64,000 nt of DNA from Acidobacteriota bacterium (lineage in GTDB: Bacteria; Acidobacteriota; Blastocatellia; Pyrinomonadales; Pyrinomonadaceae), in NCBI GenBank assembly GCA_003222975.1, contig QHXN01000031.1:1-64000 (forward strand), written 5' to 3'. Shown here in pieces: positions 1 through 40,832 of the stretch (positions within the stretch are counted from its first letter, which is position 1; the number at the start of each line of letters is the position of its first letter). A model generated the notes under the pieces. The model ran no database searches. It was not told the origin of the DNA and saw only the letters and a program-made list of their open reading frames with translations. The translations under genes were made by a program, and so were the position numbers.

Positions 1-134
1 GAGAGCGCTTCCGGCGCGAGCACGGCGTCGAGCTGGAGTACGAAGTCGAGCTGTGGGGCGCGGACGCTGAATTTAAGGATGAAGGCAGAAGGATGAAGGA
101 TGAAGACAGACGGGGAGAAGGGGAGACGGGATGA
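1..134 (+). CDS. murB: UDP-N-acetylmuramate dehydrogenase (MurB), C-terminal end only; truncated by window start
   Basis: Frame 3 reads ERFRREHGVELEYEVELWGADAEFKDEGRRMKDEDRRGEGETG* ; MurB-like C-terminus just upstream of ftsQ. Confidence 0.6.
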   Translation, partial: ERFRREHGVELEYEVELWGADAEFKDEGRRMKDEDRRGEGETG

Positions 135-240
135 CGGGGAGACTGAGAGACATGTTGAGTAGAGCGGGAGAGTCGAGCGGCCTTCACGCCGTAGCTCTTT
201 CGCCCCGTCGCCCCGTCTCCCCGTCGCCCCGTCCTTCGTC
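75..240. repeat. Inverted repeat of 7-8 nt tandem words (AAGGATG / ACGGGGAG family)
   Basis: Left arm aaggatg aaggcag aaggatg aaggatg aagacag acggggag aaggggag acgggatg acggggag; right arm cgccccgt cgccccgt ctccccgt cgccccgt. Confidence 0.85.
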
Positions 241-246
241 GGAGGT

Positions 247-1362
247 GTGGCAGTGAGGGAACAGGTAGTAACTACGCGGGCGGGACGAGTCGGCGCGGCG
301 TCGAAGGGGCGCGCGGGCGTGTCTGTGCAGCGGCCCGCCGCGCGCCGCACTAGCCCCGCCGCCGCGCGCGCCCCGCGACAGAGGAGCTTCCCGTGGAAGT
401 CGGCGCTCGCATACGTCCCCGCCGTCCTCAAGATCGCGCTGGCCGTCTCCCTGGGCGTGCTCGCCTTCGTCGGCTACCGCGCCGCCGTCTCGGCCTCCTT
501 CTTCAAGGTCAGGGCGGTGGACGTTGACGGCGCGGCGCGCGCCTCGCGCGAAGAGATTCGCGCCGACGTGCTGCGCCTGTCGAACGCGGGCGTGTGGCAG
601 GCCGACCTCGACACAATCGCCGCCGAGTTGCGCGGCCTGCCGTGGGTGCGCGAGGCGGTCGTCTCGCGCGTGCTGCCGTCGGGTTTGCGCGTGCGCGTCA
701 CGGAGCGCGTGCCGCGCATCATCGCGCGCACTGCCGCAGGCCGGCTCGTCTGGGTTGACGACGACGGCGTGATGCTCGGCGCGGCCTCGCCCGGCGAGCA
801 GGATTTCTTCGTGCGCGGCCTCGAAGAGGCCCGCACCGACGAGGCGCTCAAGGATAACCGCGAGCGCGTGAAGGCCGCGCTCGACCTTTCGTCCGAGTGG
901 GGAGGCGCGGGACTCTCGCGCCGCGTGAGCGAGGTTAACCTCGAAGACTCGCGCGACGTGCGCGTGCAGCTCGCGGGCGAGGACTCAGGCGTCGAAGTGC
1001 GCCTGGGCCGCGAAGACCTCGCCAAGCGCTTCCGCCAGGCGCTCGAAGTCCTCGACGCGCAGCGCCAGACGCCGCGCGGCCCCTTCATCACCTACGTTGA
1101 CGTGTCGCAGGGCAAGCGCGCCATCATCGGCACGGGCGCGAACGCGCGCTTCCAGTTGAACGAGCGCGGCGACGCCGAGTCGGGCGGGCCGCAGCCACAG
1201 CCGGACACGGGCGCGCGGGCCGCGACTCAGACGGGCGCGCACGCGTCGAGCGCCGCGCCGAAGGAAGGGAAGAAGGAGGCGCGGCAGCCGAAGCCGGTCG
1301 AAAAGAAGAACGACGACGCGCGCCCGCCGGACGTGGCGCTGCGCCCGCGCCGAGTCAATTGA
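247..1362 (+). CDS. ftsQ: Cell division protein FtsQ (POTRA domain)
   Basis: N-terminal TM, POTRA-like FFKVRAVDVDG...LPWVREAVVSRVLPSGLRVRVTERVP; upstream of ftsA. Confidence 0.9.
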   Translation: MAVREQVVTTRAGRVGAASKGRAGVSVQRPAARRTSPAAARAPRQRSFPWKSALAYVPAVLKIALAVSLGVLAFVGYRAAVSASFFKVRAVDVDGAARASREEIRADVLRLSNAGVWQADLDTIAAELRGLPWVREAVVSRVLPSGLRVRVTERVPRIIARTAAGRLVWVDDDGVMLGAASPGEQDFFVRGLEEARTDEALKDNRERVKAALDLSSEWGGAGLSRRVSEVNLEDSRDVRVQLAGEDSGVEVRLGREDLAKRFRQALEVLDAQRQTPRGPFITYVDVSQGKRAIIGTGANARFQLNERGDAESGGPQPQPDTGARAATQTGAHASSAAPKEGKKEARQPKPVEKKNDDARPPDVALRPRRVN

Positions 1363-1495
1363 GTCGCGGATCGGTTGCCTGTGCGAAAGGTCAGTCGCTT
1401 TTGTGGAAGGAGCGAGTCTCGATTGTCTGAAGCAGCGAGTCCCGTTTTCGCGCCGTGCGAGATGAACCCCCTGTTTGCGGAGGAGCGAAACCCGA

Positions 1496-2839
1496 ATGGC
1501 TAAACAAGTGTCGCACACCGTCGGCCTCGACATCGGGACGAGCCGCATCACCTGCATCATCGGCGAGCCGGGCGACGGCGGACTGGTGGATGTGGTCGGC
1601 ATCGGCGAGTCGGAGGCGCGCGGCCTTCGCAAAGGGGTCGTCGTTGACCCGGAGGCGGCGGTCGAAGCGATCACGCGCGCCGTCGAAGAGGCCGAGCGGA
1701 TGAGCGGCCTCGAAGCCGAGGAGGTCGCCATCAACCTCTCCGGCTCGCACATCATGAGCTTCAACGGCCAGGCCATCGTCGCCGTTTCGGGCCGCGAGCG
1801 CGAGCCTTCGCACGAGAACGGCCACGGTCGCCGCTCGTTCTACGGTCCGCCCGCGCACGTCGTCGTCGCCGGACGCGACCGCGAGATCACGCAGGACGAC
1901 GTGCGCCGCGCCATCGAGTCGGCCTCGGCCATCCAGCTCCCCGCAGGGCGAGAGATTGTTGACCGTCTGCCGCAGGAGTTCATCGTTGACGACCAGGACG
2001 GCATCAACGACCCCGTCGGCATGATCGGCGCTAGATTAGCCGTCAAAGTCCACATCGTCACCAGCCCCGTGACCGCGCGCCAGAACGTCATCAACTCGGT
2101 CAACCGCGCCGGCCTCGTCGTCGGCGAGATGGTCTTGGAACAACTGGCCGCCGCTGAAGCAACGCTCACCGACGACGACAAGGAGTTCGGCGCGGCGCTC
2201 GTGGACATCGGCGCGGAGACTACGGGGTTAATCATCTACCAGCGCGGGGCCGTGCAGCACACCGCCGTCTTCGCCCTCGGCGGCTCGCACTTCACCAACG
2301 ACATCGCGTTCGGGCTGCGCACGCCCATCCCCGAAGCCGACAAGATCAAGCGCAACGTGGGCTGCGCGTGCGGCCTGAGTCTGTCGGAGGCCGAGCGAAG
2401 CGAGCTGGTCGAAGTGCCTTCGGTCGGAGGCCGACCGCCGCGGCAGCTCTCGCGCCAGATTCTCTGCGACATCCTCCAGCCGCGCGCCGAAGAGGTTCTC
2501 TCCCACGTCGCCGACGAGATACGCGAGGCAGGCTGGGAGGGCCAGCTTTCGAGCGGCGTCGTTTTAACGGGCGGCGGCTCGCTCCTCGACGGCATGGTCG
2601 AGATCGCCGAGCAGGTCTTCGACGCGCCCGTCCGGCTCGGCTACCCGGAGCGCGACCGCTTCGGCGGACTGGTCGAAGACATACAGAATCCCGCGTGGGC
2701 CGCTGCCTCGGGGCTGTGCCTGATGGCGCAGCGCGCGAAATCAGCAGAAATGCGGGCTTCCATGGCGCGCGCGCAGGCGGGCGGGAGTTTGGGCGCGCTC
2801 GTCTCGAAATTTCGCAATCGTTTCGGTGGTATTTTCTGA
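1496..2839 (+). CDS. ftsA: Cell division protein FtsA
   Basis: [26 protein letters not shown], actin-like ATPase motifs, [13 protein letters not shown]; followed by ftsZ. Confidence 0.95.
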
Positions 2840-2928
2840 GAAGATGTTGTATGCTGCCGCGCCAGCCGGCACAAGATGTAGTCCTCAATATATTGTCGTC
2901 GTCGGCGCGCACAGCCCAAGATAACCGC

Positions 2929-4125
2929 ATGAACCCTTTCGAGGCCGCGGATGCTTCAGAAGGAGAGAGGAACTTGCAGACTATGACACCGGAAGGCCGT
3001 CCGGGCAGCGGGATCAATATTTTCATTGATGACGACCCGCCCATCACGGGTGCGCGCATCAAAGTCATCGGCGTCGGCGGCGGGGGCGGCAACGCCGTCA
3101 ACCGCATGATCGAGGCCGGAATAGAGGGCATCGAGTTCCTCGTCGCCAACACAGACCTCCAGGCCCTGAAGCGCTCGCGCGCGCCGATCAAAATCCAGCT
3201 CGGCGGCAAGCTCACGAAGGGCCTGGGCGCGGGCGCGAACCCCGACATCGGTCGCAACGCCGCGCTCGAAGACACCGAAAAGATCATCGAGGCTCTGGAA
3301 GGCGCGGACATGGTCTTCGTCACCACGGGACTGGGCGGCGGCACTGGCACGGGCGCGGCCCCCATCATCGCCTCGCTCGCCACGGAGCTGAACGCCTTGA
3401 CCGTCGCGGTCGTCACCAAGCCCTTCCACTTCGAGGGCAAGCGGCGCATGACGCAGGCCGAGGTGGGCCTGAGAGAGCTTCGCGAGTGCGTGGACACGGT
3501 GATTACGATCCCGAATGAGCGGCTGCTCCACACGGTTGACAAGACCGTCTCTCTGACCGACGCCTTCAAGATGGCCGACGACGTTCTGCGCCAGGCCGTG
3601 CAGGGCATCTCAGACCTCATCATCGTGCCCGGCCTCATCAACCTCGACTTCGCCGACGTGAAGACGATCATGCAGGGGATGGGACTGGCCCTGATGGGCG
3701 CGGGGCGCGCGTCGGGCGAGAACCGCGCCGTCGAGGCGACGCAGCAGGCCATATCCAGCCCGCTCCTGGAAGAGGCGACGATTCAGGGCGCGAAGGGCGT
3801 GCTCATCAACATCACCGGCGGCCCCGACCTGACCCTGTACGAGGTCAACGAGGCCAGCTCGATCATCCGCGAGTCGGCGGACGACGACGCCAACATCATC
3901 TTCGGCGCGGTCATTGACGAGACGCTGCGCGACGAGATGAAGATCACCGTCATCGCCACGGGCTTCGACAAGGAGTCGGCGGACGCGGGGAGGACGACGC
4001 AGGCGGGCGCGACCGCTCAGGCGCAGCGCTACACGCAGCCCGCAGACCTCCCGCCGCGCCCCGGCACGCCCGCGCGCTCCGACGACCTCGACGTTCCGAC
4101 CTTCATCCGCAAGAAGGCGGACTGA
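2929..4125 (+). CDS. ftsZ: Cell division protein FtsZ
   Basis: [27 protein letters not shown] tubulin signature, C-terminal [17 protein letters not shown] open upstream, ATG at 2929 chosen. Confidence 0.96.
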
Positions 4126-4129
4126 AAGT

Positions 4130-4247
4130 CAGTTCAAAGTTAAAAGTTTAAAGTTCAAGGTTCAAAGCCCGGTGCGGCGACTTTGAACCTTGAACTTTTT
4201 TTGCCGGGAGTTTGAACTTTGAACCTGCAACCTTGAACTTTGAACTC
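4130..4247. repeat. Inverted repeat of GTTCAAA heptads, two right arms
   Basis: gttcaaa gttaaaa gtttaaa gttcaag gttcaaa ... ctttgaaccttgaac ... tttgaactttgaac ... ccttgaactttgaac. Confidence 0.9.
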
Positions 4248-4465
4248 CGGTCATGTAGCATGTCGCGCAAAACCTGACAGGATTGAAATCATCTACGGGT
4301 AAAGACCGTTTCTCGTCTGTCTAATTCAGACCGCAGAGTGTGTGAAGACGCCAACGCGCACGCGTCGCCGTGTATTGTCTTCCGTTCGATCCTGTTCCCT
4401 TGAGGACAGCCGACGCGCCCAATTCATGCAAGCTTTTTGGCATTACTGGAGGTGAGGAAACTAAG

Positions 4466-4897: not shown

Positions 4898-4908
4898 CGC
4901 CTCTGGAA

Positions 4909-4986
4909 GGGTTCAGGATTCAGAGTTCAAGCTGGAGCTTGCTTCTTCCGCCGAGAACAGCAAGCTCAAGCCTGAACTCTGAACCC
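4909..4986. repeat. Inverted repeat, GTTCAGG/ATTCAGA/GTTCAAG heptads
   Basis: gggttcaggattcagagttcaagctggagcttgc ... gcaagctcaagcctgaactctgaaccc. Confidence 0.85.
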
Positions 4987-5059
4987 CCGCCCGGCGACCT
5001 CGGCTTGGGGCGCGGCGGGAATCCCCTCATCAAACCCCACCCGGTTCGGGCTTCGAGCG

Positions 5060-6121
5060 ATGAGTGACGCTTCACCAAAGCCAGCCGAGCGCGAAATCGC
5101 CGGGCGTCGCCCGCGCGTCGGCATCACGATGGGCGACCCCGCCGGCATCGGCCCCGAAGTCGTCCTCAAGGCCGTCGCCGAGCGCGAAGTGCTCTCGGCT
5201 TGCGCGCCCGTCATCGTCGGCGACGCGCAACTCCTGGCGCACACCGCGCGCACGCTCGGCCTGCGCTGCGGCTACCAGATTGTGCGCCGCGGCGAGCCGC
5301 TCCCCGCCGACACGGACGATCCCGTCATTTATCACCTCGACAACATCGGCGTGTCGGTCGAGCCGGGCGTCGAGTCGGCTGCCGCGGGCCGGGCCGCCGC
5401 CGAGTACATCGAGGCCGCGGTCGCGCTCTGCGGCGCGGGCGCGGTCGAGGCCATCGCGACCGCGCCGATCAACAAGCGCGCCCTTTTCTTAGGCGGCTAC
5501 GGCTTCCCCGGCCACACGGAATTCCTCGCGCACCTCACGGGGACGACCGAGTGCGCGATGGCTTTCGTGGCATCGAACCTGCGCGTCGTCCTCATCTCAA
5601 CGCACGTGCCCCTGGCCGAGGCCATCCGCCTCGTGGAGAAAGATCGCATCGTCGGGGTCGTCCGTCTGACCGAGCGCGAGCTGCGACGCTGGGGCATCGC
5701 GCGCCCGCGCATCGCGGTGGCGGCCCTGAACCCGCACGGCGCAGAGGGCGGCCTGTTCGGCATCGAGGAGTCGGCGGAAATCATGCCGGCGGTCGAGGCT
5801 TGCCGCGCCGAGGGGCTTACAGTGTCGGGGCCGCACTCGGCGGACACGGTCTTCCTGCGCGCCTCGCGCGGCGAGTTCGACGCGGTGGTTTCGTGCTACC
5901 ATGACCAGGCGATGATCCCCGTCAAATGACTTTCGTTCGGCGAGGCGGTCAACGTCACCCTGGGCCTGCCGTTCATACGCACCTCGGTTGACCACGGCAC
6001 GGCCTTCGACATCGCGGGCCGCGGCGTGGCCGAGCATTCGAGCATGGTCGCCGCCATCACTCTGGCCGCGCGCCTGGCGCGCACCGACGAGAGCGGGAGT
6101 CTAGTGATGAATGCGGAATGA
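5060..6121 (+). pseudogene. pdxA: 4-hydroxythreonine-4-phosphate dehydrogenase PdxA, interrupted by in-frame TGA at 5927-5929
   Basis: RPRVGITMGDPAGIGPEVVLKA...[60 protein letters not shown] continues in the same frame to TGA 6119-6121. Confidence 0.85.
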
Positions 6122-6187
6122 TGAATGATGAATTGAAAGCAGGAACGTTCGTCTGATTCATCACTCATCATTCCGCATTCATCATTT
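6103..6187. repeat. Inverted repeat of GATGAAT heptads
   Basis: gtgatgaatgcggaatgatgaatgatgaattg ... attcatcactcatcattccgcattcatcattt. Confidence 0.9.
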
Positions 6188-6210
6188 CTGAAAACCGGAG
6201 GTTTCCGAAG

Positions 6211-6615: not shown

Positions 6616-6682
6616 AGTCCGCCGCGGGGCGGGCAGCGCGCCGACGCACTCCCGGCGTCAAACGCGTGTGGAGGTAAGAGAG

Positions 6683-7205: not shown

Positions 7206-7208
7206 AGG

Positions 7209-8285
7209 ATGAAGGCAACGTTGAAGGCAAAAGTAAAAAGGCAAAAGGCAAAAGAGAAGAGTGGAAGACATGGGCCGCGGCTCGCGCTCTTTCTTTTGCC
7301 TTTTGCCTTTTTACTCTTGCCTTATGTTTTGGCGCAGGCGCAGAAGAAGCCGAGGCCGGCCCTGAAGAAGGGCGAGGCGAAGCGCGTGGTCGCGGCGACG
7401 CCGGGTTTCAAGCTGAAGAACAGCGCGGTCAAGGTCAAAGAGGTCAGCGCGGCGGGCGCGACGCCCGTGAGCGTCGTGGCCGAGGTGACGGAGGCGCTGC
7501 GCTTCGCGCGGGTCGAAGACGAGAGCGCGCCGCAGACGACTGGCGTCTTCAAGCAGAAGCGCTGGCGCGCGGTCGAGTTTCGCACGGGCGACCGTAGCTG
7601 GGAAGAGTTCGACTTCCTCGCCGCCCCGCTCGGCGCGGAGCGACTTGAGGCCGCGCGGCACGCGCTCGAAGAACTCGTCACGGAGTTCGAGGCGCAGCAG
7701 AATGCAAACAAAGGCAAGGACGACGGCGAGAACGAAGGGAAGCAAGACGGCGACGCTAAGGGCAAGGACGAGAGCAAACGCGAGGGCAAGGGCAAGAACA
7801 AGAACAAGAGTAAGGGCAAGAGCGGCGAGCCGCTGACGCGCGGGCCGCTCACGATCAAGCAGCTCAACGCGTTGGTCTCGTCGGCTGTGGCGGAGGTCGT
7901 CGTCGAGGCGACGTTTCGTCTTGCGAAGGACGCTTCGGGGAAGTGGCGCGTCTCGGAGGTCTCCGTCGCCGACGAGTCGAGCGGAGACCTCGCGGCGCTC
8001 TGGCAGTCGGTGGACGCGCAGAAGGCCGCGCGCGCGCGCGCAGACCTTGAGGTTGTCCGCGCGGCGCTCGAAGCATTTCGGAGTGAGCGCGGCTTCTACG
8101 TCGCCGCCGAGGACTCCGCCGTCCTCATGGATCACCTCAGCCCGCGCTACATCAAACAGATCATCCGCCTCGACCCCTGGCACAACCCCTACCGCTACGC
8201 AGGCACGACCGCCAGCTACACGCTCGCCTCCGACGGCGCGGACGGCAAGCCCGGCACGGCTGACGACGTGACGCTCAGCCGCTAG
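7209..8285 (+). CDS. Secreted protein with K/G/E-rich low-complexity segment and GspG-like C-terminal region
   Basis: Signal peptide RLALFLLPFAFLLLPYVLAQAQ; C-terminus LEVVRAALEAFRSERGFYV...LDPWHNPYRYAG...SDGADGKPGTADDV resembles type II secretion major pseudopilin C-terminus. Confidence 0.65.
   Translation: MKATLKAKVKRQKAKEKSGRHGPRLALFLLPFAFLLLPYVLAQAQKKPRPALKKGEAKRVVAATPGFKLKNSAVKVKEVSAAGATPVSVVAEVTEALRFARVEDESAPQTTGVFKQKRWRAVEFRTGDRSWEEFDFLAAPLGAERLEAARHALEELVTEFEAQQNANKGKDDGENEGKQDGDAKGKDESKREGKGKNKNKSKGKSGEPLTRGPLTIKQLNALVSSAVAEVVVEATFRLAKDASGKWRVSEVSVADESSGDLAALWQSVDAQKAARARADLEVVRAALEAFRSERGFYVAAEDSAVLMDHLSPRYIKQIIRLDPWHNPYRYAGTTASYTLASDGADGKPGTADDVTLSR
7221..7323. repeat. Inverted repeat of GGCAAAA heptads, inside the 7209 ORF
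   Basis: ggcaaaagtaaaaaggcaaaaggcaaaagag ... cttttgccttttgcctttttactcttgcc. Confidence 0.9.
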
Positions 8286-9989: not shown

Positions 9990-10076
9990 AAGGGGCAAAA
10001 GGGTAAAAGGGCAAGAGGGGCTGAGGGGCTGAGGAGGTCTCCTTTTCCCCTCTTGCCCTTTTACCCTTTTGCCCCT
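9980..10076. repeat. Inverted repeat of GGGCAAAA/GGGTAAAA octads
   Basis: aaaaggggcaaaagggtaaaagggcaagagg ... cctcttgcccttttacccttttgcccc. Confidence 0.9.
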
Positions 10077-14539: not shown

Positions 14540-14542
14540 GAA

Positions 14543-14627
14543 GTGATGAATGCGGAATGATGAGTGATGAATGACAGGCGGCTCCCGCTTTTTAATTCAT
14601 CATTCCGCATTCATCACTCATCATTTC
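14543..14627. repeat. Inverted repeat of GATGAAT heptads
   Basis: gtgatgaatgcggaatgatgagtgatgaatg ... aattcatcattccgcattcatcactcatcattt. Confidence 0.9.
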
Positions 14628-14631: not shown

Positions 14632-14970
14632 ATGGCTACCATCCCGCAGCTTGAGCTTTACCACCTGATCGAAGAGGCGGGCGAGCGCGGCGAGCGCGTC
14701 GTCGTGGCGACGGTCGCGCACACGCGCGGCTCGACCCCGCAGCGGCGCGGCGCGAAGATGCTCTTCTTCGAGGGCGGCGCGGTGGCGGGCACGGTGGGCG
14801 GCGGCTGCGTCGAGGCCGAGGTCTGGGCCGAGGCGCGCGTAGCCTTGCGCACGGGACGCCCGGCGCTCCACCGCTTCAGCCTCACCGCCGATGAGGCCAG
14901 CGAGGAGGGCATGGTCTGCGGCGGGACGATGGAGATTTTCCTCGACGTGTGGAACGCGCAAAAGACGTGA
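14632..14970 (+). CDS. XdhC/CoxI family N-terminal domain protein
   Basis: HTRGSTPQRRGAKMLFFEGGAVAGTVGGGCVEAEV, EGMVCGGTMEIFLDV. Confidence 0.85.
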   Translation: MATIPQLELYHLIEEAGERGERVVVATVAHTRGSTPQRRGAKMLFFEGGAVAGTVGGGCVEAEVWAEARVALRTGRPALHRFSLTADEASEEGMVCGGTMEIFLDVWNAQKT

Positions 14971-15115
14971 ACCGTAAACCGTAAACCGTAAACCGTAAAC
15001 CGTAAACCGTAAACCGTGAATCGTAAACCGTGACAAGTGGCTTCCGCCCTGATACGGTTTGCTGCTAACTTATGACGGCTTCTTCTCGTCACGGTTCACG
15101 GTTTACGGTTTACGT
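14967..15115. repeat. Inverted repeat of GTAAACC heptads (left arm ~9.5 units)
   Basis: gtgaacc (gtaaacc)x6 gtgaatc gtaaacc gtgac ... gtcacggttcacggtttacggtttac. Confidence 0.95.
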
Positions 15116-15130
15116 CTTTCGGAGGTATCT

Positions 15131-15454: not shown

Positions 15455-16272
15455 GCGGCGCGGGCGACACGAACCTTTCCGCACAACTGACACGCGCGGT
15501 CGCGCGCGCGCTCGGCGACGGCGCGTCGGCGGTGCTTGCCACAATCGTGGAAGCCCCACGAGGCGTCGGCGCGAAAGTCCTGCTCGAAGAAGTGGGCGGG
15601 CGCACGGGGACGACCGGCGACGCGGCGCTCGACGACGCGCTGGCGGAACACGCGCGCGCGTTCCTCGCTTCGCACGCCGAGGCGCGGACGCTACGCGTCG
15701 GCGAGTTCGCGCCCGCGCTCGGAGAGTGGCGCGACGCGCGCGTCCTCTTCGAGCGCATCGAGCCGGAGCCGCGCGTCGTCGTCTGCGGCGCGGGGCACGT
15801 CGGCGCGGCGCTGGCGCGGCTCGCCCGCGTGGTCGGCTACCGCGTCACGCTCATAGACGACCGCGAAACCTTCGTCGCGCGCGAGCGCTTCCCCGAAACG
15901 GGCATCGAGCTGGTCGCCGCGCCGAACTGGACTGACCCGCTCAGAGAATTGATCGGCGCGGGCCGAGGCGTCTCGGTCGCGGTCGTCACGCGCGGGCACA
16001 ACGAGGACGAGGAGTGCATGAGGGCCGTGCTCGCGGCGCGCCCCGACTACGTCGGTATGATCGGCAGCCGCCGCCGCACGAACATCGTCCTCGCGCGCCT
16101 GCGCGAGTCGGGCTTCGACGAAGAGCTGTTGAGCCAGGTGCGCGCGCCCATCGGCCTCGACCTCGGCGCGGTCTCGCCCGAAGAGGTCGCGCTCTCCGTC
16201 CTCGCCGAGATCGTCGCCCAACGGCGCGGCGGCACGGGCCGGCCACTCTCCGAGTGGAGAAGGCAGAAGTAA
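15451..16272 (+). CDS. XdhC family protein with Rossmann domain
   Basis: VVVCGAGHVGAALARLARVVGYRVTLIDDRETF, RPDYVGMIGSRRRTNIVLARLRE, APIGLDLGAVSPEEVALSVLAEIV. Confidence 0.88.
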   Translation: MSGAGDTNLSAQLTRAVARALGDGASAVLATIVEAPRGVGAKVLLEEVGGRTGTTGDAALDDALAEHARAFLASHAEARTLRVGEFAPALGEWRDARVLFERIEPEPRVVVCGAGHVGAALARLARVVGYRVTLIDDRETFVARERFPETGIELVAAPNWTDPLRELIGAGRGVSVAVVTRGHNEDEECMRAVLAARPDYVGMIGSRRRTNIVLARLRESGFDEELLSQVRAPIGLDLGAVSPEEVALSVLAEIVAQRRGGTGRPLSEWRRQK

Positions 16273-16395
16273 AAAGGCAAAAGGCAAAAGAGGGAAAGAC
16301 GGGCAGCGCCACTCTCGTCAACCGCTAATGATGAGAGACGACTCGGCCCACTTGTCCCTTTCTTTTGCCCGCTGCCTTTTTCCTTTTGCTTTCTT
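16263..16395. repeat. Degenerate inverted repeat of GGCAAAA heptads
   Basis: aggcagaagtaaaaaggcaaaaggcaaaagag ... cccttttcttttgcccgctgcctttttccttttgc. Confidence 0.75.
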
Positions 16396-24140: not shown

Positions 24141-24222
24141 GAATGCGGAGCGGCGGATTTCGGATTGCGGATTGGAAGCAAGCAGTCTTCAATCCGTAAT
24201 CCGAAATCCGCCGCTCCGCAAT
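24141..24222. repeat. Inverted repeat of CGGATTT/CGGATTG heptads
   Basis: gcggagcggcggatttcggattgcggattg ... caatccgtaatccgaaatccgccgctccgc. Confidence 0.9.
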
Positions 24223-24336: not shown

Positions 24337-25329
24337 ATGAGGTCGAAAGAAATTTGCGGGGCCGCGCGCGTGACGTGCGCGGCTTTGCTATTGTCGGTCG
24401 TGTGCGCTGCGGGGGCACGGGCGCAGGGCGCGGGCTGGGTCGGCGGGCGGCAGGGACGGGCGGGCAAGGACTTGAACGCGATCTACTTCGCCGACTCGAA
24501 GCGCGGCTGGGTGGCGGGCGACGGCGGCCTCGTCCTGCACACCGAAGACGGCGGGCGCACCTGGACGCGGCAGAACATCGGGACGGACGAGAACGTTGAC
24601 GACATCTACTTCCGCGACCGTGAGGACGGCTATCTTCTCGCCGTCAACCAGATTTTCACGACCGAGGACGGCGGCCAGACCTGGAAGCTGTCGGCGCGCT
24701 TCCTCGCCGAGACCTTCGGCGGCGCGCAGCCCGAACTCTACAGCGTGCGCTTCACGGGCAAGAAGCGCGGCTGGATCGTCGGCTCTCTGAGCCGCGGCGA
24801 CACGGTCGTTGACAGCCTCGTCCTGCACACTACGGACGGCGGCGCATCCTGGCAGCGCCAGCGCGTGCCCGTCGCCGACGAGCTGATCCACCTCGACTTC
24901 GACGGCGACAAGCGCGGCTGGATCGTCGGGAGCGCGGGCCGCATACTTCACACGTCTGACGGCGGCGAGACGTGGGCGTTGCAAACTTCGGGCACGAACG
25001 CGACGCTCTACCACGTTGACTTTCAAGATGGCGACCACGGCTGGGCCGTCGGCGAGAGGGGGACGATCCTGCACACGGAGGACGGCGGCGCAACGTGGCG
25101 CGTGGCGGGCGCGCCCGTGCGCTCGACGCTTTTGAGCGTCTGGTTCGTCAACAAAGAGGAGGGCTGGGTCGCCGGTCGCGGCGGCGTCATCCTGCGCTCC
25201 GACGACGGCGGGCAGACCTGGTTGCAGCAGGAGACGAGCACGCGGCAGAACCTCTACGCGCTCTTCTTCGACAAGAAGGCGGGCTGGGCCGTCGGCGGCG
25301 ACGGGCTGGTCTTGCGGTACGAGAGATAA
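24337..25329 (+). CDS. YCF48/BNR-like repeat protein, secreted
   Basis: Repeats of TEDGGRTWTRQNIGTDENVDDIYFRDREDGYLL; GWIVGSAGRILHTSDGGETW. Confidence 0.85.
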   Translation: MRSKEICGAARVTCAALLLSVVCAAGARAQGAGWVGGRQGRAGKDLNAIYFADSKRGWVAGDGGLVLHTEDGGRTWTRQNIGTDENVDDIYFRDREDGYLLAVNQIFTTEDGGQTWKLSARFLAETFGGAQPELYSVRFTGKKRGWIVGSLSRGDTVVDSLVLHTTDGGASWQRQRVPVADELIHLDFDGDKRGWIVGSAGRILHTSDGGETWALQTSGTNATLYHVDFQDGDHGWAVGERGTILHTEDGGATWRVAGAPVRSTLLSVWFVNKEEGWVAGRGGVILRSDDGGQTWLQQETSTRQNLYALFFDKKAGWAVGGDGLVLRYER

Positions 25330-25416
25330 AAGCCGTGAACCGTAAACCGTGAACCGTGACAAGAGAAAAGCAGGTTTTCTCTTGTCACGGTTCACGGTTT
25401 ACGGTTCACGGCTTTT
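25328..25416. repeat. Inverted repeat of GTGAACC/GTAAACC heptads
   Basis: agccgtgaaccgtaaaccgtgaaccgtgacaagagaaaa ... ttttctcttgtcacggttcacggtttacggttcacggct. Confidence 0.95.
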
Positions 25417-25460
25417 TCTGAGCAACGCGGCGTCGGCGTCATCGCATCCGAAGAGACAGC

Positions 25461-25570
25461 ATAGCAGTTACCCTTCATGGCCGCGGCGGGGAACGCGGCC
25501 AAGGGGTAAAGTGGATGGTTCTCCTGTGGTTTCCGCCCGGCGTGGGGACAACGCGCCGGGCGGCTTTTTC
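25461..25570 (+). ncRNA. Candidate structured small RNA with intrinsic terminator
   Basis: TTACCC-ttcat-GGCCGCG-gcggggaa-CGCGGCC-aag-GGGTAA stem, then CCGCCCGGCG-tggggacaacg-CGCCGGGCGG-CTTTTTC; no convincing ORF. Confidence 0.45.
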
Positions 25571-25573
25571 ATT

Positions 25574-25770
25574 TGCGGAGCGGCGGATTTCGGATTGCCG
25601 ATTGAAGAAGAGCATGGCTCTGAGATTCTCTATTGGATGCGACCTGAGCTAAGAGTTGCGGCCTTCAGGCTGCCCCGCGGGCACGCTAAAGCGTGAACTC
25701 TGAACCGGTCGCACTCATACGAAAACTGCTGTATTAATCCGCATTCCGCAATCCGAAATCCGCAATCGTA
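25574..25770. repeat. Inverted repeat of CGGATTT/CGGATTG heptads, arms separated by ~125 bp
   Basis: gcggagcggcggatttcggattgccgattgaag ... ttaatccgcattccgcaatccgaaatccgcaatcg. Confidence 0.75.
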
Positions 25771-29536: not shown

Positions 29537-29620
29537 GCCCTCGCTTGTCCCCCTTTGCAGGTGAGACAAGTTGAGACGAGAGGCAGACGGTAGCGAGGGC
29601 CGGCTGCCTCTTGCTATTTT
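29537..29620 (+). ncRNA. Candidate structured leader/attenuator RNA upstream of bshA
   Basis: GCCCTCGCT(29537-29545) pairs AGCGAGGGC(29592-29600); GAGGCAG(29580-29586) pairs CTGCCTC(29604-29610), followed by TTGCTATTTT. Confidence 0.45.
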
Positions 29621-29712
29621 AGCTGTTAGCTATTAGCTGTTAGCTGTTAGCCAGAAATGGTTAACCATCATTTGTCTTAGCTAACGGCTAATAGCCTAAC
29701 AGCTATTAGCTT
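29618..29712. repeat. Inverted repeat of TTAGCTG heptads
   Basis: ttagctgttagctattagctgttagctgttagc ... gctaacggctaatagcctaacagctattagc. Confidence 0.9.
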
Positions 29713-29718: not shown

Positions 29719-30712
29719 ATGAACATCGGCATCACCGTCTATCCGACTTACGGCGGCAGCGGCATCGTCGGCTCGGAACTGGGCAAGGAGCTTGCGGAGC
29801 GCGGGCACACGGTTCACTTCATCTCTTCCAGCCTGCCGACGCGGCTCACGCAGTTGAGCGAGCGCGTGCGCTTCCACGAGGTCGAGATGATGTCGTACCC
29901 GCTCTTCGAGCACCAGCCCTACACGCTCGCGCTGGCGACGAAGATGGCCGACGTGGCCGAGACCGAAAACCTCGACCTCCTGCACGTCCACTACGCCATC
30001 CCGCACTCGATCAGCGCGATTCTGGCGCGCGAGTCTCTGAAGCCGCACCGGACGCTCCCCGTCATCACGACGCTGCACGGCACGGACATCACGCTCGTCG
30101 GGGCCGACCGCTCCTACCTGCCGATCACGCGCTACGGCATCGCGCAGTCGGACGGAGTCACCGCGGTCTCGAACTACCTGAAGCAGGCGACCACGGAGCT
30201 TTTCCAGTTCGACCACATCGCCGTCATCCCGAACTTCATCTGCGCGACGGACTATCAGCGCCGCCCGCGCACGGAGCTGCGCGGTGAACTCGCGCCCGGC
30301 GGCGAGTCTCTGCTCGTGCACGTCTCGAACTTCCGCCCCGTGAAGCGGCCCGTTGACTGCGTGGAGATTCTGGCGCGCGTGCGCGAGAAGGGAGTGGGCG
30401 CGCGGCTCGTGATGGTCGGCGACGGCAGCGAGCGCCCGCGTGCGGAGCACCGAGCGCGCTGCCTGAGCGTCGAGCGTCACTGCTCTTTCGTCGGCAAGCA
30501 GCCGCGCATCAGAGACTACCTCTCGGTGTCGGACGTTCTGCTCCTGCCGTCGGAGCAGGAGTCTTTCGGCCTCGCCGCGCTCGAAGCCCTCGCCTGCGAA
30601 GTGCCCGTCATCGCCTCGCGCGTAGGCGGCATCCCCGAAGTCGTTGACGACGGTGTGACGGGCTGCCTCGCCGAAGTCGGCGACATCGAGAAGATGAGTG
30701 CCGACGCGGCGC
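29719..30712 (+). CDS. bshA: BshA-like N-acetyl-alpha-D-glucosaminyl L-malate synthase (GT4); C-terminus appears lost, frame stays open to 31449
   Basis: [37 protein letters not shown]...[12 protein letters not shown]...[12 protein letters not shown]...[23 protein letters not shown]; after [14 protein letters not shown] similarity stops. Confidence 0.8.
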
Positions 30713-31444
30713 GTCGCAGAGGGGCCATCGCGAAGCGCCCCGCGCCGCACGCCCGACGCGGTCGAGTGGGCGGCCTGCGTCCTCGAAGAGAAGCCGGTCG
30801 GCTACTTCATCCAGAATCTGGAGCGCGCCTACGGAGTCCCCGAAAACAAGTGGACTGGCTGGGACGTGCTCGACATGCTCGTCTCGGTCATCCTCTCGCA
30901 GGCGACGAGCGACGCCAACAGCGACCGCACCTACGACGCGCTCAAGCAACGCTTCCCCACCTGGGACGCCGTGCTCCGCGCGCGCGAACAGACGCTCGCC
31001 GACACCATACGCCTCGGCGGACTCGCCAACCAGAAGGCCGCAGTCATCCGCGCCCTGCTCCGCCAGATCAAAGAGCGCCACGGGTCGCTCGACCTCTCCT
31101 TCGTCCGCGGGATGCCGACCGGCGAGGCCGTGCGTTATCTGTCGGCGTTCCGCGGCGTCGGCCCGAAGACCGCCGCCTGCACGCTCCTGTTCGCCTGCGG
31201 CCAAGACGTGTTCCCGCTCGACACGCACATCTTCCGCGTCCTCCGACGCGTCGGCCTCATCCCCCCGAAGTGCTCCGACGAGTTCGCGCACGAAGTCATG
31301 AACCGCCTCGTGCCCGCCGGCAAGTTCTACTCCCTCCACGTCAACCTCATACGCCACGGGCGCAAGCTCTGCCGCCCCCGCGAACCCCTGTGCGGGCGCT
31401 GCCCCGTCGTCGAATACTGCGACTACGGGCGGGAAAGGATTTGA
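30698..31444 (+). CDS. nth: Endonuclease III (HhH-GPD, 4Fe-4S); start uncertain
   Basis: [56 protein letters not shown]-terminal [17 protein letters not shown]. Confidence 0.88.
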
Positions 31445-31445
31445 A

Positions 31446-31528
31446 ATGAAATGCGGAATGATGAATGATGAATGCCCGGAGGCTCTCACCTTTCAATTCA
31501 TCATTCATCATTCCGCATTCATCATTTT
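31446..31528. repeat. Inverted repeat of GATGAAT heptads
   Basis: atgcggaatgatgaatgatgaatg ... aattcatcattcatcattccgcattcatcatt. Confidence 0.9.
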
Positions 31529-31533
31529 CTTCT

Positions 31534-32886: not shown

Positions 32887-35172
32887 ATGAAAAGACAGCC
32901 CTCTTTAGTCACGCCGCTTCTCGTCCTTTCGCTGCTCGCGCCGGCCTTCAGCCAGACGCCGCAGAGGACGCCCGCGCCGCAAACCCCACAGCCGAGCGCC
33001 GCGGCGCAGCAGCCCGTTCCGGCGGCCACGCCCACGCCGACGCCGCAGGAGGAGTCGGACGAGGACGTTGTGCGCATCACGACGAACCTCGTGCAGTTCG
33101 ACGCCGTCGTCACGGACAAGCAGGGCCGTCCGGTGACCGACCTCCGGCCCGAAGACTTCGAAGTCTATGCCAACGGCAGGAAGCAGGAGGTCACGAACTT
33201 CTCTTACATCTCGACCGAGGCGGGCGCGCCCGCCGCCGCCCAGCCCGCCGCGCCGTCGCGACGCGCCGACAAGACGGCCCCGCCCGTCCCGCCCGCGCGC
33301 CTCCGGCCCGGACAGGTGCGCCGCACGGTCGCGCTCGTCGTGGACGACCTCGGCACCTCGTTCGAGAGCCTGCACTTCGTTCGGCAGGCGCTCAAGAAGT
33401 TCGTTGACGAGCAGATGCAGCCGGGCGACCTCGTCGCCATCATGCGGACGAGCGCCGGGATGGGCGCTTTGCAGCAGTTCACCAACGACAAGCGGATGCT
33501 CTACCGCGCCATCGAGCGCGTGCGCTGGTATCCGCAAGGGCGCTCCGGCACGAGCGCCTTCGCGCCGATGGAGGGCCTGCCGCCGAGTAGTAACGACGCC
33601 GGCAGCATGAACGTCGGCGATAGTAAAAGCGGCGGCGGTGGCGACAGCGACGGCAGCAGCTTCGGCGGAGCTGCCGACGCCTCCGCTGATATGGACGAGT
33701 TCCGCGACGAGATTTTCTCGGTCGGCACGCTCGGCGCGGTGAACTTCATCGTGCGCGGGATGATGGAGCTGCCCGGCAGAAAGTCTGTCGTCATGTTCTC
33801 CGACGGCTTCGGAATCTACAACCGCAAAGACCCTTCCAAGGGGACGCGCGTGATAGACAAACTCCGCCGCCTAGTTGACCTCGCCAACCGCGCCTCCGTA
33901 GTCATCTACGCGGTGGACGCGCGCGGCCTGCCCTGCCTGTGCCTGACGGCGGCGGACAACACCGCCGGGCGCTCGATGCAGCAGGTTCAGCAAGCGTTGG
34001 ACGACCGCAGGACGAGCTACCTGGACACGCAGTCCGGCCCGGACTTCCTCGCCGCGCAGACAGGCGGCTTCCTCGTCCACGACAACAACGACCTCAGCGG
34101 CGCAGTCCGCCGCGTGCTCGAAGACCAGAGGGGCTACTACCTCATCGGCTTCCGCCCCGACCGGAGCGTCTTCGACACGATCAGGGGACGCAGGCAATAC
34201 AACAGCCTCCAGGTGAAGCTGAAGCGACCGGGCCTGCGTGTGCGCACGCGCTCCGGCTTCATCGGCGTCACGGACGCCGAGGCCAGGCCCGTGCGCCGCA
34301 CGCGCGGCGAGCAGCTCGTCGGCGCGCTCGCGTCGCCCATCGCTTCGGGCGACTTGGCGCTGCGCCTGACCTCGCTCTTCGGCGGCGACACGGCGGGCGG
34401 CTCGTTCGTCAGCTCGCTCACGCACATAGACATGAGCAAGGTCAACTTCACGGACGAACCCGACGGCTGGCACAAGGCCGTCTTCGACGTGATCGCGCTC
34501 ACCTTCGGCGAGGAAGGGCAGGTCGTTGACCAGATAGACCGCACCGAGACCGTGCGCGTGCGCAAAGAGGCGTTCGACAACGTCCGCCGCGACGGCCTCG
34601 TCTATACGATGCAGGTTCCCATCAAGAAGCCGGGCGCGTACCAACTGCGCGTCGCCGTGCGCGACGCCGCGACCGAGAAGCTCGGCTCGGCCAGCCAGTT
34701 CATCGAAGTCCCGAACCTCAAGAAAGACCGCCTCGCGCTCTCAGGCGTCCTCATGCAGTCGGCCAGCTACAGCGCGGCGCAGTCGGCGGCGGGCGCGGTC
34801 GGCGAGGGGCAGCAGAAGGAGCAGGACGAAGCCCTCGCGCAGGGCAGCCCCGCCCTGCGCCGCTTCCGCCTGGGCGAAGAGATTGACTACTACTTCAACA
34901 TCTACAACGCTCGGCCCAGCCCCGCGGGCCGCCCGCAGTTGCAGACGCAGCTCCGCCTCTTCCGCGACAACCAGCAGGTCTATGCCGGACAGCCAACTAC
35001 CTTCGACGCGAGCAAGCAGACCGACATGAAGAACCTGCACTCAGGCACGCGCATCCGCCTCGGCGGACTCGCGCCCGGCGAGTACGTCCTTCAGGTCATC
35101 GTCACAGACCTGCTCGCGCCCGAAAAGCAGCGCACCGTGACGCAGTGGACTGACTTCGAGATAGTCAAATAG
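32887..35172 (+). CDS. Secreted VWFA-related (TIGR03436-like) protein
   Basis: FDAVVTDKQGRPVTDLRPEDFEVYANGRKQEV; VVDDLGTSFESLHFVRQALKKFVDEQM; RKSVVMFSDGF. Confidence 0.88.
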   Translation: MKRQPSLVTPLLVLSLLAPAFSQTPQRTPAPQTPQPSAAAQQPVPAATPTPTPQEESDEDVVRITTNLVQFDAVVTDKQGRPVTDLRPEDFEVYANGRKQEVTNFSYISTEAGAPAAAQPAAPSRRADKTAPPVPPARLRPGQVRRTVALVVDDLGTSFESLHFVRQALKKFVDEQMQPGDLVAIMRTSAGMGALQQFTNDKRMLYRAIERVRWYPQGRSGTSAFAPMEGLPPSSNDAGSMNVGDSKSGGGGDSDGSSFGGAADASADMDEFRDEIFSVGTLGAVNFIVRGMMELPGRKSVVMFSDGFGIYNRKDPSKGTRVIDKLRRLVDLANRASVVIYAVDARGLPCLCLTAADNTAGRSMQQVQQALDDRRTSYLDTQSGPDFLAAQTGGFLVHDNNDLSGAVRRVLEDQRGYYLIGFRPDRSVFDTIRGRRQYNSLQVKLKRPGLRVRTRSGFIGVTDAEARPVRRTRGEQLVGALASPIASGDLALRLTSLFGGDTAGGSFVSSLTHIDMSKVNFTDEPDGWHKAVFDVIALTFGEEGQVVDQIDRTETVRVRKEAFDNVRRDGLVYTMQVPIKKPGAYQLRVAVRDAATEKLGSASQFIEVPNLKKDRLALSGVLMQSASYSAAQSAAGAVGEGQQKEQDEALAQGSPALRRFRLGEEIDYYFNIYNARPSPAGRPQLQTQLRLFRDNQQVYAGQPTTFDASKQTDMKNLHSGTRIRLGGLAPGEYVLQVIVTDLLAPEKQRTVTQWTDFEIVK

Positions 35173-35249
35173 TTCAAAGTTCAAGGTTCAAAGTTCAAAG
35201 TCGAAGGCGGGCTTCCAACTTTGAACTTTGAACTTTAAACTTTGAACTC
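35171..35249. repeat. Inverted repeat of GTTCAAA heptads
   Basis: agttcaaagttcaaggttcaaagttcaaag ... aactttgaactttgaactttaaactttgaactct. Confidence 0.92.
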
Positions 35250-35250
35250 T

Positions 35251-37617: not shown

Positions 37618-37618
37618 A

Positions 37619-37723
37619 AAGGCCGTGAACCGTAAACCGTGACAAGTGGTTTTTGCATTGGCACGGTTCGCGGTTTCCGGCTCACAGCTTTTATCTCGTC
37701 ACGGTTTACGGTTCACGGCTTTT
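37619..37723. repeat. Inverted repeat of GTGAACC/GTAAACC heptads with two right arms
   Basis: ggccgtgaaccgtaaaccgtgacaag ... gcacggttcgcggtttccggctcac ... gtcacggtttacggttcacggc. Confidence 0.9.
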
Positions 37724-39652
37724 ATGCGATCTGTAATCGTCGGCACGGCGGGGCACATTGACCACGGGAAGACGAGCTTGGTGCGCGCGCTGACGGGCGT
37801 GGACGCTGACCGCCTGCCGGAGGAAAAGCGGCGCGGCATCACGATTGACCTCGGCTTCGCGGAGCTTGATCTGGGCGAGGTGCGCGTTGGCTTCGTGGAC
37901 GTGCCCGGCCACGAGCGTTTCGTGAAGAACATGCTGGCGGGCGCGCACGGCATTGACCTCGCGGCGCTCGTCATCGCCGCGGACGAGGGCGTGATGCCGC
38001 AGACGCGCGAGCACTTCGACATCTGCCGCCTGCTCGCCGTCGCTGCGGGCCTCGTCGTCCTCACGAAGACCGACACGGTTGACGAGGAGCTGCTCGAACT
38101 CGTCCGCGCGGAGGCCGAGGAGTTGGTCGCGGGGTCGTTCCTCGAAGACGCGCCGGTCGTCGCCGTGAGCGCGCGCACGGGGGAGGGGATTGAAGAGTTG
38201 AAGGCGAAGCTGCGCGAGGCCGCGCTCGCCGCGCCCGCGCGCGACTCCGATACGGTGACGCGTTTGCCCGTTGACCGCTCGTTCACGATGCGCGGCTTCG
38301 GCGCGGTGGTGACGGGCACGCTCGTCGCGGGCGAGATCGCGGAGTGGCAGGAGTTGGAGCTACTGCCGGCGGGCGCGCGCGTCCGCGTGCGCGGCGTGCA
38401 GGTTCACGGCTCGACCGTGAAGACCGCGACGGCAGGGCAGCGCACGGCGGTCAACCTCGGCGGCGTCGAGGCGTCGGGGGTCGTGCGCGGGATGGTGCTC
38501 GCGCCGGCGGGCCGCCTCGCCGCGACGCAGATCATGGACGCGCGCGTCTCAGTTTTGAAAGACGTGCCGCGCCCTCTGAAGACCAGACAGCGCGTGCGCG
38601 TGCACCACGGCACGGCGGAAGTCCTCGCGCGCGTCGTCGTGCTCGAAGGGCCGGGCGAGCCAAGTGAGACCGTGCCGGGCGCGGCGGGGTTAGTCCAACT
38701 CCGACTCGAATCTCCGATAGTCGCGCTTCCCGGCGACCGCTTCATCCTGCGTACATACTCGCCGCAGCAGACGGTCGCGGGCGGCGAGGTTCTGGACGCG
38801 CACGCGCCGAAGCACCGCGGTCGCGAGCGCGCGGCGGCGCGTGCGCGGCTCGCATCGCTCGCGGGCGCGGACGCGGCGGCGCGGCTCGCCTTCTTCGTCG
38901 AGTCAACGGGCGAGCGCGGCCTGCGTCGCGCCGAGGCCGCGTCGCGCACGGGCTGGCGCGACGACGTGCTCGACGCCGCGCTCGCCGAGGCGCGCGGGCG
39001 CGGCGCGGTCGTCGAGGCCGAGGGCGTGCTCGCGAGCCGCGAGGTCTTCGAGCGGCTTTTGCGCGCGGCGGTCGCGGAGGTCGAGGCTCATCACGTGCGC
39101 GAGCCTCTGTCGCGCGGCCTCGCGCGCGAGACTTTGCGCGAGCGCGTGTTCGCGCGCGCCGCGCCGGAACTCTTCCGCTCGGCCTTGCAGCGCGCCGAGG
39201 CCGAAGGCGCACTCGTCTCGGAGCGCGAGCTTGTGCGCTCGCGCGGCCACAGCCTCGAACTCTCGCCCGCGGACGAGGCGCTGCGCGAACGGCTTGAGAA
39301 AGTTTATCGCGAAGCCGCGCTCGAAGCCCCGACGCTCGAAGAGGCTTTCGCGCGCGCCGACGCCGACGCCGGCAAGCGCCGCGAGCACCTGCGCAAGATT
39401 CTCCAGTTGCTGATTGACGCGGGTGCGCTCGTCCGCGTCCGCGAAGACCTCTTCTTCCACCGCGGCGCGCTCGACCGGCTGGTCGCCGCCTTGCGCGAGT
39501 ACGCCGCCGGCCGCGGGCCGGAGCGCCTGATTGACGTGGCCGCCTTCAAGGAACTCTCCGGCGTCTCGCGCAAGTACGCCATCCCGCTCCTCGAATACTT
39601 CGACCGCGAGCGCGTCACGCGCCGCGCCGGGGACAAGAGGGTGATTCTCTGA
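37724..39652 (+). CDS. selB: Selenocysteine-specific translation elongation factor SelB
   Basis: [47 protein letters not shown]...[42 protein letters not shown]; winged-helix C-terminal half. Confidence 0.95.
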
Positions 39653-39654
39653 AG

Positions 39655-39803
39655 TGAGGCAGGAGGCAGACGGCAGGGGCAGGAGGCAGGAGCAGACGGC
39701 AGGAGGCAGTGGTTGACTTCAACAGGCGTCGCGCTTTCACCTTAACCGCTCGTCGAAGATTTTTTCCTGCCTCCTGCCGTCTGCTCCTGCCTCCTGCTCC
39801 TCG
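39655..39803. repeat. Inverted repeat of GAGGCAG/ACGGCAG heptads
   Basis: gaggcaggaggcagacggcaggggcaggaggcaggagcagacggcaggaggcag ... ctgcctcctgccgtctgctcctgcctcctgctcct. Confidence 0.93.
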
Positions 39804-39972
39804 CCCCTTCAAAAACTTCCTTGCTTCCAGCGTGCGGGGGCGCTAACATAGCGGCGAATCCGAGCAGTGCAGTTTTGCACGAAGCCGCAACCGGTGAATT
39901 CTCAGGTACAAGCTTTTCCGGCTTTATCTTTAGCCGATACTTTACCAACTCAACGAACGCTGGAGGTTCAAG

Positions 39973-40188
39973 ATGAAGAGCCTAGTTGACGTTCTGCTTG
40001 GGATCGTGGGAGTGGTCGCACTCGTGTACGCGATCATCAGGTTCTATAACTTTGTGACCGGAGTGAGCACGGGCTTCACGCGCGATCTGATAATAGCGAT
40101 CATCGGCTTCGTCGTGATGTGCGTCTGCGCGCTCGCGATCTTCCTGCGCCACTCCGGGGCGGAGGAGGAGATTCACATCACGCAGTGA
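39973..40188 (+). CDS. Small membrane protein
   Basis: 71 aa, two TM segments; ggagg upstream. Confidence 0.6.
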   Translation: MKSLVDVLLGIVGVVALVYAIIRFYNFVTGVSTGFTRDLIIAIIGFVVMCVCALAIFLRHSGAEEEIHITQ

Positions 40189-40388
40189 CCGAGGGCCGCC
40201 TGGTTGCTTCTCTTTCGTGAGTCGGAGGCTCCGCGCCGGGGCGTTCAGAAGAACCGCGCGGCCACCGCACGCACGCCGACGAGTTTGCGGGCGTCGCGCG
40301 CGCCGTCACCCGACGTTCGAGGGCGCGCGCGACGCCTCTCGTTTTACGCGCGCCGGAACTCTGACCCCTTCAGGAAAGGACTCGCCCG

Positions 40389-40742
40389 ATGTCCCTGACC
40401 TTCACGCACGCGCTCTTGCAGGCCGAGCCGATGCGCATCCCCGCTTACTTCCCCTGGGTGGCCCTGGGGCTGCTCGGCCTCGGCGGCCTCGGCTGGCTGA
40501 TCGCCGCCGTGCTCGGGTTTGCGCGCGCGCGCGCCTTCGGCGACTCGCCGCGCTGGTTCGCAGTCTCCGCCGTCTGCCTCCTGCTCTACCACGTGCAGTG
40601 GTTCGTCTTCGCCATCTACGGCATGAACGAGGGGAACATAGAGAACGTAGTCGGCATGGCCGCCTTCTTCAACCTCTTCGTCGCGCTCGGCGCGCTGTGC
40701 GCCGTCGTCGGCTTCATGCGCCTCACAGCCCCGCGGGACTAA
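40389..40742 (+). CDS. Hypothetical membrane protein
   Basis: 117 aa, three predicted TM segments. Confidence 0.6.
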   Translation: MSLTFTHALLQAEPMRIPAYFPWVALGLLGLGGLGWLIAAVLGFARARAFGDSPRWFAVSAVCLLLYHVQWFVFAIYGMNEGNIENVVGMAAFFNLFVALGALCAVVGFMRLTAPRD

Positions 40743-40747
40743 AACAA

Positions 40748-40832
40748 TTGCGGAATGCGGATTTCGGATCGCAGATTAGAGAACAGCATTGTTCTCATCA
40801 ATCCGCAATCTGAAATCCGCATTCCGCAATCC
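40748..40832. repeat. Inverted repeat of GCGGATT/TCGGATC heptads
   Basis: ttgcggaatgcggatttcggatcgcagatt ... aatccgcaatctgaaatccgcattccgcaat. Confidence 0.9.

Follow-up and report, generated by a model that had tools for sequence, protein, structure and literature searches.

What are the palindromes of tandem heptanucleotides that stand behind so many genes in a stretch of Acidobacteriota DNA, and why are their places kept while their words change? The stretch (hereafter the window) comprises the first 64,000 nucleotides of contig QHXN01000031.1 and is part of a 4.93-Mb, 153-contig genome (G000); its GC (guanine plus cytosine) content is 66%. BshA and the related genomes suggest membership of the class Blastocatellia. 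An earlier description made from the letters alone (the sequence-only reading) had listed 18 foldback sites of tandem 7–8 nt words and proposed an expanding foldback element or an mRNA 3'-end, termination or RNA-protection element. Non-autonomous mobile foldback elements are the best explanation, with a probability of about 0.5. The mobile unit would be two tandem-heptamer arms of one word family, with fixed outside-to-inside polarity, around an unconserved loop. Amplification in some lineages, presence or absence at given sites, nesting, and the same arm across phyla are all observed.

A palindromic unit at the 3' ends of genes

All 18 sites exist: at each of them the raw sequence has an array on the left, then a loop, then the reverse-complement array on the right. 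In an ungapped inverted-repeat scan of the window (score at least 18, span at most 220), 15 sites pass as strong repeats, and three (near 16263, 25574 and 29618) are imperfect or require gaps. Twenty dinucleotide-preserving shuffles of the window gave 1 match altogether, the period-7 spectrum is sharp, and RNA folding predictions give a median of -53 kcal/mol (z -11.5), which places the structures beyond chance. The 7- or 8-nt period is constant generally and weak at 4909. Word order had been thought to differ at times between arms, with register-shifted pairing. Usually the arms mirror each other; the shifts that do exist come from partly decayed arms. An Rfam scan of the window returned one tRNA only and no match of the elements above the gathering score.

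Abundance was estimated in 0.89 Mb of the host genome, where genes were called by a purpose-written codon-model predictor trained on the genome's own long open reading frames (its stops are reliable and its starts approximate). Here, 154 hairpins score at least 18, and 132 of them have tandem arms, 115 with period 7 and 10 with period 8. Extrapolated from 0.89 to 4.93 Mb, about 700 hairpins are estimated. Intergenic arrays number 1014 per Mb for period 7, 97 for period 8 and 0–6 for periods 4, 5, 6, 9, 10 and 11, against 24 period-7 arrays per Mb in coding sequence. An inverted partner lies no more than 300 bp from 158 of the 178 period-7 arrays (89%), which makes the palindrome the unit. Each element is a 60–150 bp palindrome with arms of tandem 7-mers, at times 8-mers, of one word family, and at least a dozen families stand side by side in this one genome. 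The exact arm core CCGTGAACCGTAAACCGTGAC has 179 copies genome-wide and its reversed pattern none; the 21-mer core GATGAATGCGGAATGATGAAT has 122, with 0 for reversed controls. Terminal inverted repeats and dispersed copies, as in miniature inverted-repeat transposable elements, are thus both present.

Each word family reads from outside to inside in one way (26:0, 24:0, 23:1, 22:1 and 15:0 in this genome, the others being alike). The same polarity is kept at 285:1 in relatives of the class and at 154:0 in other phyla. Independent local formation of palindromes is disfavoured, because it would yield both polarities. Left arms are purine-rich (0.67). Within a family, arms at different loci are 0.91–0.95 identical, and an arm and its own partner 0.95–0.96. 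The polarity of unpaired arrays relative to the nearest gene is mixed, in a sample (n = 20) too small to be conclusive. Eleven GTGAACC elements have a common loop that contains a decayed extra right arm; a composite ancestor with this arm was copied to 11 loci. To judge from these copies, the unpaired arm appears to decay while the paired arms remain similar. A conserved loop or tip as a mobile core was rejected: a weak purine-then-pyrimidine bias is seen here (0.66 vs 0.31), and no common motif in other phyla.

Upstream of valS in three genera (L074:9879–9990, L069:12698–12805 and L066:3198–3348), the arms flank a conserved unique stretch, which consists of a small hairpin and a TTTACAAT-like box. 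The loop there is therefore native intergenic DNA.

The proposed enrichment at the 3' ends of genes is borne out, also in other phyla. Between codirectional genes (96 elements), the 5' arm starts at a median of 4 nt past the stop codon (quartiles -2 and 8) and within 20 nt of it in 86 cases. The 3' arm ends at a median of 18 nt before the next start; 48 of the 96 lie within 20 nt of both stop and start, and in 34 the stop codon is inside the arm. Elements occupy 23 of 79 convergent junctions (29%), 96 of 475 codirectional ones (20%) and 4 of 70 divergent ones (6%). In other phyla the placement is the same (median 7 nt from the stop; 44 codirectional, 11 convergent and 4 divergent). A universal stop cassette, in which a stop within the word would reach all frames because 7 is coprime to 3, was rejected since GTTCAAA, GGCAAAA and GCGGATT contain no stop.

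The suggested roles in transcription termination and RNA protection remain hypothetical. TTTT occurs in the 8 nt past the 3' arm of 9 of the 96 codirectional elements, terminator scans flag almost none of the elements, and a native terminator is still conserved between two elements at window 25330–25733. For most copies, a canonical intrinsic terminator was rejected on these grounds.

Turnover at junctions and distribution among genomes

Junction by junction, this genome was set against three congeners, in regions of which three had been picked for their many elements in this genome: 41 have an element in both, 48 in this genome only, 9 in the relative only and 90 in neither. Stratified by remaining gap, the Mantel-Haenszel odds ratio for a shared element is 9.2. 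As the sequence-only reading had suspected, words are replaced while period and palindromy persist: 36 of the 41 shared junctions have no word in common, and word sharing is 12% at orthologous junctions versus 3% in random pairs. Against other genera of the family, the corresponding counts are 13, 16, 1 and 22. Some relatives scored as lacking an element retain a weak one on inspection, so conservation of the junctions is underestimated. An ortholog search with one protein of L013 gave no match in the congeners.

Three junctions illustrate the range. Upstream of valS, six genomes have six different word sets, and several genomes have none. At the ftsZ junction, the words GTTCAAA, GGCAAAA and GGCAGTA of different species are unrelated. 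At the pdxA junction, four species use words that differ by single letters (GATGAAT, GATGAGT and GATGAAG), and the right boundary is the same. The 18 elements of the window, none with an assigned strand, are as follows.

75–233: composite element; outer GATGAAG/GCAGAAG array at 75–105, inner ACGGGGAG 8-mer palindrome at 109–139 and 203–233
4131–4246: GTTCAAA palindrome immediately 3' of the ftsZ stop; GGCAAAA or GGCAGTA palindromes in sister species
4909–4993: GTTCAG/GTTCAAG hairpin, weakly periodic at 7 nt; nothing equivalent in sister species
6105–6184: GATGAAT/GCGGAAT palindrome between pdxA and the gene that follows; in sister species, palindromes of GATGAGT or GATGAAG
7224–7323: GGCAAAA palindrome
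9991–10076: 8-mer palindrome AAAAGGGG/AAAAGGGC upstream of valS; relatives have five further word sets
14542–14618: GATGAAT/GCGGAAT palindrome; GATGAAG palindrome in G003
14961–15119: GTAAACC/GTGAACC palindrome with a left array of nine units
16263–16395: GGCAAAA imperfect palindrome; left arm 16263–16290, right arm about 16356–16395
24144–24220: GCGGATT/TCGGATT palindrome; non-periodic 40-bp palindrome at the same place in G003
25328–25416: GTGAACC/GTAAACC perfect 42-bp palindrome, beginning at the upstream stop codon
25574–25767: GCGGATT element with a long loop, on the far side of the conserved native terminator 25533–25563
29619–29711: TTAGCTG imperfect palindrome
31450–31519: GATGAAT/GCGGAAT palindrome
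35171–35248: GTTCAAA palindrome that takes up the interval between stop codon (35172) and start codon (35251); in sister species, palindromes of GTAAACC or GGTGAAT
37618–37723: GTGAACC palindrome with a long loop and a decayed extra right arm, abutting the upstream gene's stop and the selB ATG; 16-nt gap in G002
39656–39801: GGCAGGA/GGCAGAC palindrome after selB
40747–40830: GCGGATT/GCGGAAT palindrome between convergent genes (junction 40742–40837); ordinary bidirectional terminator instead in G002 and G003

Gain or loss is visible between close relatives. In G003, a 144-bp element (L094:7021–7164) lies 3 nt from a stop, and in G002 there is none at this site (L093:7040), downstream of which the two genomes are about 95% identical. 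Only 1.9 kb away, one junction has a GGCAAAA element in one of the pair and a GGCAGTA element in the other; comparison of L094 with L093 makes it likely that a remnant of a GGCAAAA arm adjoins the GGCAGTA element. Where this genome has junction gaps of 67, 134, 114 and 106 nt, congeners have gaps of 9–26 nt (67 versus 9 or 11, 134 versus 9, and 106 versus 16).

Elements are also nested. GGGTGCT palindromes lie inside GGCAGTA arms at L062:4343–4484 and L187:184–310, and a GGTAAAT palindrome lies inside GTGATGA arms at L077:17200–17325. An automatic scan for foreign words in outer flanks gave 79 of the same polarity versus 44 of the opposite, counts that are confounded by coding tails; the evidence for nesting is restricted to the hand-checked cases.

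Particular words have amplified in one lineage: the 21-mer core has 122 copies in this genome, 0, 4 and 1 in the congeners, and 11, 5 and 2 in other genera. For such words the elements can be called expanding, as had been suggested. In six genomes of the same class (G012, G015, G021, G025, G028 and G029), no element was detected in the 15–20 kb sampled. An exact 31-mer arm is found in genome representatives of at least seven phyla. Among the matches listed are Planctomycetota (several orders), Chloroflexota, rumen Bacteroidales, Acidobacteriota, Kiritimatiellae, Verrucomicrobia, Betaproteobacteria, Desulfobacteraceae and Gammaproteobacteria, the last including Thiosymbion and the cultured Microbulbifer rhizosphaerae. 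Many of these loci hold palindromes, often with further words and with the polarity unchanged. Patchiness across phyla together with bursts within a genome is the pattern of mobile DNA, and the common 31-mer suggests a widespread mobile hairpin across bacterial phyla.

Two further kinds of palindrome were noticed. Congeners have non-periodic palindromes of 30–45 bp (e.g., GGGAGCGCGGGCATCCCTGCCCGCC) where this genome has heptamer palindromes (L062:2395–2618, L091:12220–12769 and L183:12428–12654). This genome also has a second dispersed class with ACCACAGAGGCACAGAGG arms and an irregular period of 9–11 (L013:3640–3723, L015:11205–11292 and L054:2887–2970), and in other phyla (L100 and L112) there are period-10 palindromes of ACACGGAT/ACGCAGAT.

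Mobile elements, selected structures or by-products

If the elements are mobile, a newly arriving copy might land on, or inside, an older element, or on a 3'-end hairpin of another kind. The old arms, unpaired after the landing, would decay, and the junction would thereby retain a hairpin while its words change. The element would move as a single-stranded hairpin and prefer existing hairpins or 3' ends. Behind stops it would survive, as a hairpin there would spare genes and promoters and could replace a 3'-end hairpin. The mobiliser to be expected is a process acting on single-stranded DNA hairpins, which either the host or an undescribed gene would provide.

Several results weigh against mobility. 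Loop identity between copies is 0.41–0.51, versus 0.38–0.45 for shuffled loops, and whole-unit copying should keep loops similar. In the 91.7%-complete genome, neither a transposase of the Y1 type (PF01797; controls positive), the family of the REP-associated tyrosine transposases (RAYTs; REP, repetitive extragenic palindrome), nor a reverse transcriptase (PF00078) was matched; REP/RAYT identity and retroposition by a known reverse transcriptase were rejected accordingly. Carriage by phages or plasmids was also rejected: three arm cores have 7, 0 and 5 exact matches in viral contigs, from which they are almost absent, and BLAST against plasmids and phages gave no match, in a search whose low-complexity filter may hide such a query. 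At the presence/absence pairs, which are 80–95% identical at best, no clear target-site duplication is visible. Several empty sites also have a changed native spacer, which leaves clean insertion unproven.

Loss of the nuclease SbcCD as a permissive cause was likewise rejected. SbcD scores above the cut-off in the element-rich G004 and G024 and also in the element-free G021 and G028; it is below the cut-off in G000–G003, and there is no association with elements.

The divergence of loops between similar arms is the least understood point: either constraint or homogenisation keeps the arms alike, or the arms travel without their loops. In the latter case the elements might represent a widespread, undescribed mobility class, in which paired arms of fixed polarity, drawn from a word set common to several phyla, spread between sites and phyla, loops stay, and no known hairpin-mobilising transposase is involved. 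The 3' junctions would then be repeatedly overwritten docking sites. This proposal is tentative.

A somewhat doubtful alternative is that the palindromes are selected 3'-end structures, inherited vertically, whose words are rewritten in place by slippage and arm-to-arm copying. The stem might protect the RNA 3' end, be processed by RNase III between cistrons, terminate transcription, or couple a terminating ribosome to the next start. Much of the placement fits: junctions are kept between species with unrelated words, the stem sits where a terminating ribosome would touch it, half of the codirectional elements lie within 20 nt of both stop and start, and at 40742–40837 an element takes the position that an ordinary bidirectional terminator has in relatives. 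The very stable folds, the slightly better match of arms to their own partner (0.96) than to other copies, and the one-letter variants at pdxA with their common boundary also agree with it. In-place drift, however, does not account for identical words at over 100 unlinked loci as well as in other phyla, for the nested elements or for the unrelated words at ftsZ, and for termination the rarity of U-tracts, the terminator scans and the native terminator kept beside two elements stand against it. Mobile origin and selection can both hold, the elements being mobile by descent and tolerated or useful in place. A further reading is that of a mutational by-product, generated by polymerase template switching at hairpins and 7-nt slippage, with only selection against damage shaping the distribution. 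The depletion at divergent junctions and the near absence of arrays from coding regions are what it predicts, but it would give both polarities and locus-specific words, and the observed polarity is fixed and the words are genome-wide and cross-phylum. The six genomes of the class in which no element was detected also speak against this process, which is unlikely.

In Neisseria and Haemophilus, inverted pairs of DNA uptake sequences and uptake signal sequences lie behind genes and act as terminators. By analogy, the arms could be preferred uptake words spread by natural transformation. Such a process could explain how arms spread without loops, and high copy number, lineage-specific word sets and inverted pairs behind genes would be common to both. 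It is nevertheless very improbable: uptake systems favour one short word, and at least a dozen word families are found in this genome; the units here are long tandem palindromes, not words of 9–12 bp, and inside genes single words show no enrichment as tandem arrays.

The likeness to the short tandemly repeated repetitive sequences (STRRs) of cyanobacteria, raised by the sequence-only reading, holds well for the arrays, but no published case comes closer than the GGGAATC repeats of Xanthomonas (PMC4692102). Rehm and colleagues described them as inverted pairs near stops, with function unexplained, depleted between divergent genes and, for the most part, found at the same gene junctions in two species (PMC4692102). 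Like these and the GGGGA(C/T)T repeats of Nostoc (PMC4692102), the present elements are intergenic tandem 7-mers 0–50 nt from stops and rare between divergent genes; as in Xanthomonas, there are many convergent inverted pairs, which related species retain at the same gene junctions although the sequence varies. The Xanthomonas and Nostoc repeats, in contrast, use one G-rich word per genome and are discussed as G-quadruplexes. Here at least a dozen families, mostly unable to form quadruplexes, are almost all paired and show orthologous word replacement, nesting and cross-phylum identity.

In the SPADE survey of 7006 prokaryotic genomes, heptamers were more common between genes than any other periodic repeat, and there was 'no clear clue' to what they do (PMC6344855); MacGregor suspected horizontal spread of TAACTGA repeats, with no mechanism (PMC4679880). 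These repeats and STRRs resemble the present elements in being of period 7, intergenic and patchy across phyla. They are described as direct repeats, and palindromic pairing, fixed polarity and orthologous word turnover are not in those descriptions. REPs and REPINs (REP doublets forming hairpins; PMC3733652, PMC3116915) are also high-copy palindromes downstream of codirectional or convergent genes, probably transcribed and mobile by inference. They are 20–40 bp palindromes with a GTAG or CGTC tag and no tandem heptamers, and GTAG REPs have RAYTs; the present elements are 60–150 bp long, with many words and no common tag. The foldback elements of Drosophila (FB, Galileo and Tetris) likewise have long inverted repeats of tandem subrepeats around a variable loop, but they are eukaryotic and far longer, and Galileo and its relatives have a known transposase, none being known here.

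No description of a multi-word palindromic class, of word replacement or of the cross-phylum 31-mer was found in the open-access literature searched. These results give the open question of heptamers something concrete to address: palindromes of fixed polarity that follow a position rule, nest in one another, show measurable gain and loss, and have an exact 31-mer arm common to unrelated phyla. Mobility would mean that common environmental bacteria harbour a hairpin-mobilising mechanism that awaits discovery; selection would mean that an unrecognised RNA device, at 3' ends or between cistrons, is present in many operons. In both cases, a conserved position with replaced sequence is a pattern that searches for regulatory elements by alignment would overlook.

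Other observations in the window and at its orthologs

No heptamer palindrome was found between 41 and 64 kb of the window (23 kb scanned). The part from 41000 to 64000 follows a tRNA-Met (41961–42037), contains genes for ABC (ATP-binding cassette) transporters, ECF (extracytoplasmic function) sigma factors and regulators, and falls in GC toward its end. It may be a later acquisition that has yet to collect elements.

Three genes show anomalies. The pdxA gene has an in-frame TGA at 5927–5929, where sister species have a TGC cysteine codon. Beyond it the frame continues and is conserved, and selB is in the same window (37724–39652). The TGA may be a nonsense mutation, an assembly error or a selenocysteine codon. 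In the bshA frame (29719–31449), similarity is lost past residue 330, and the frame then runs out of phase over an endonuclease III-like reading frame (30698–31444), which looks like a frameshift or a sequencing error. At the valS loci of G003, G008, G011, G013 and G015, the ValS matches are split within one long open frame, which suggests in-frame insertions of about 25–40 amino acids in several relatives.

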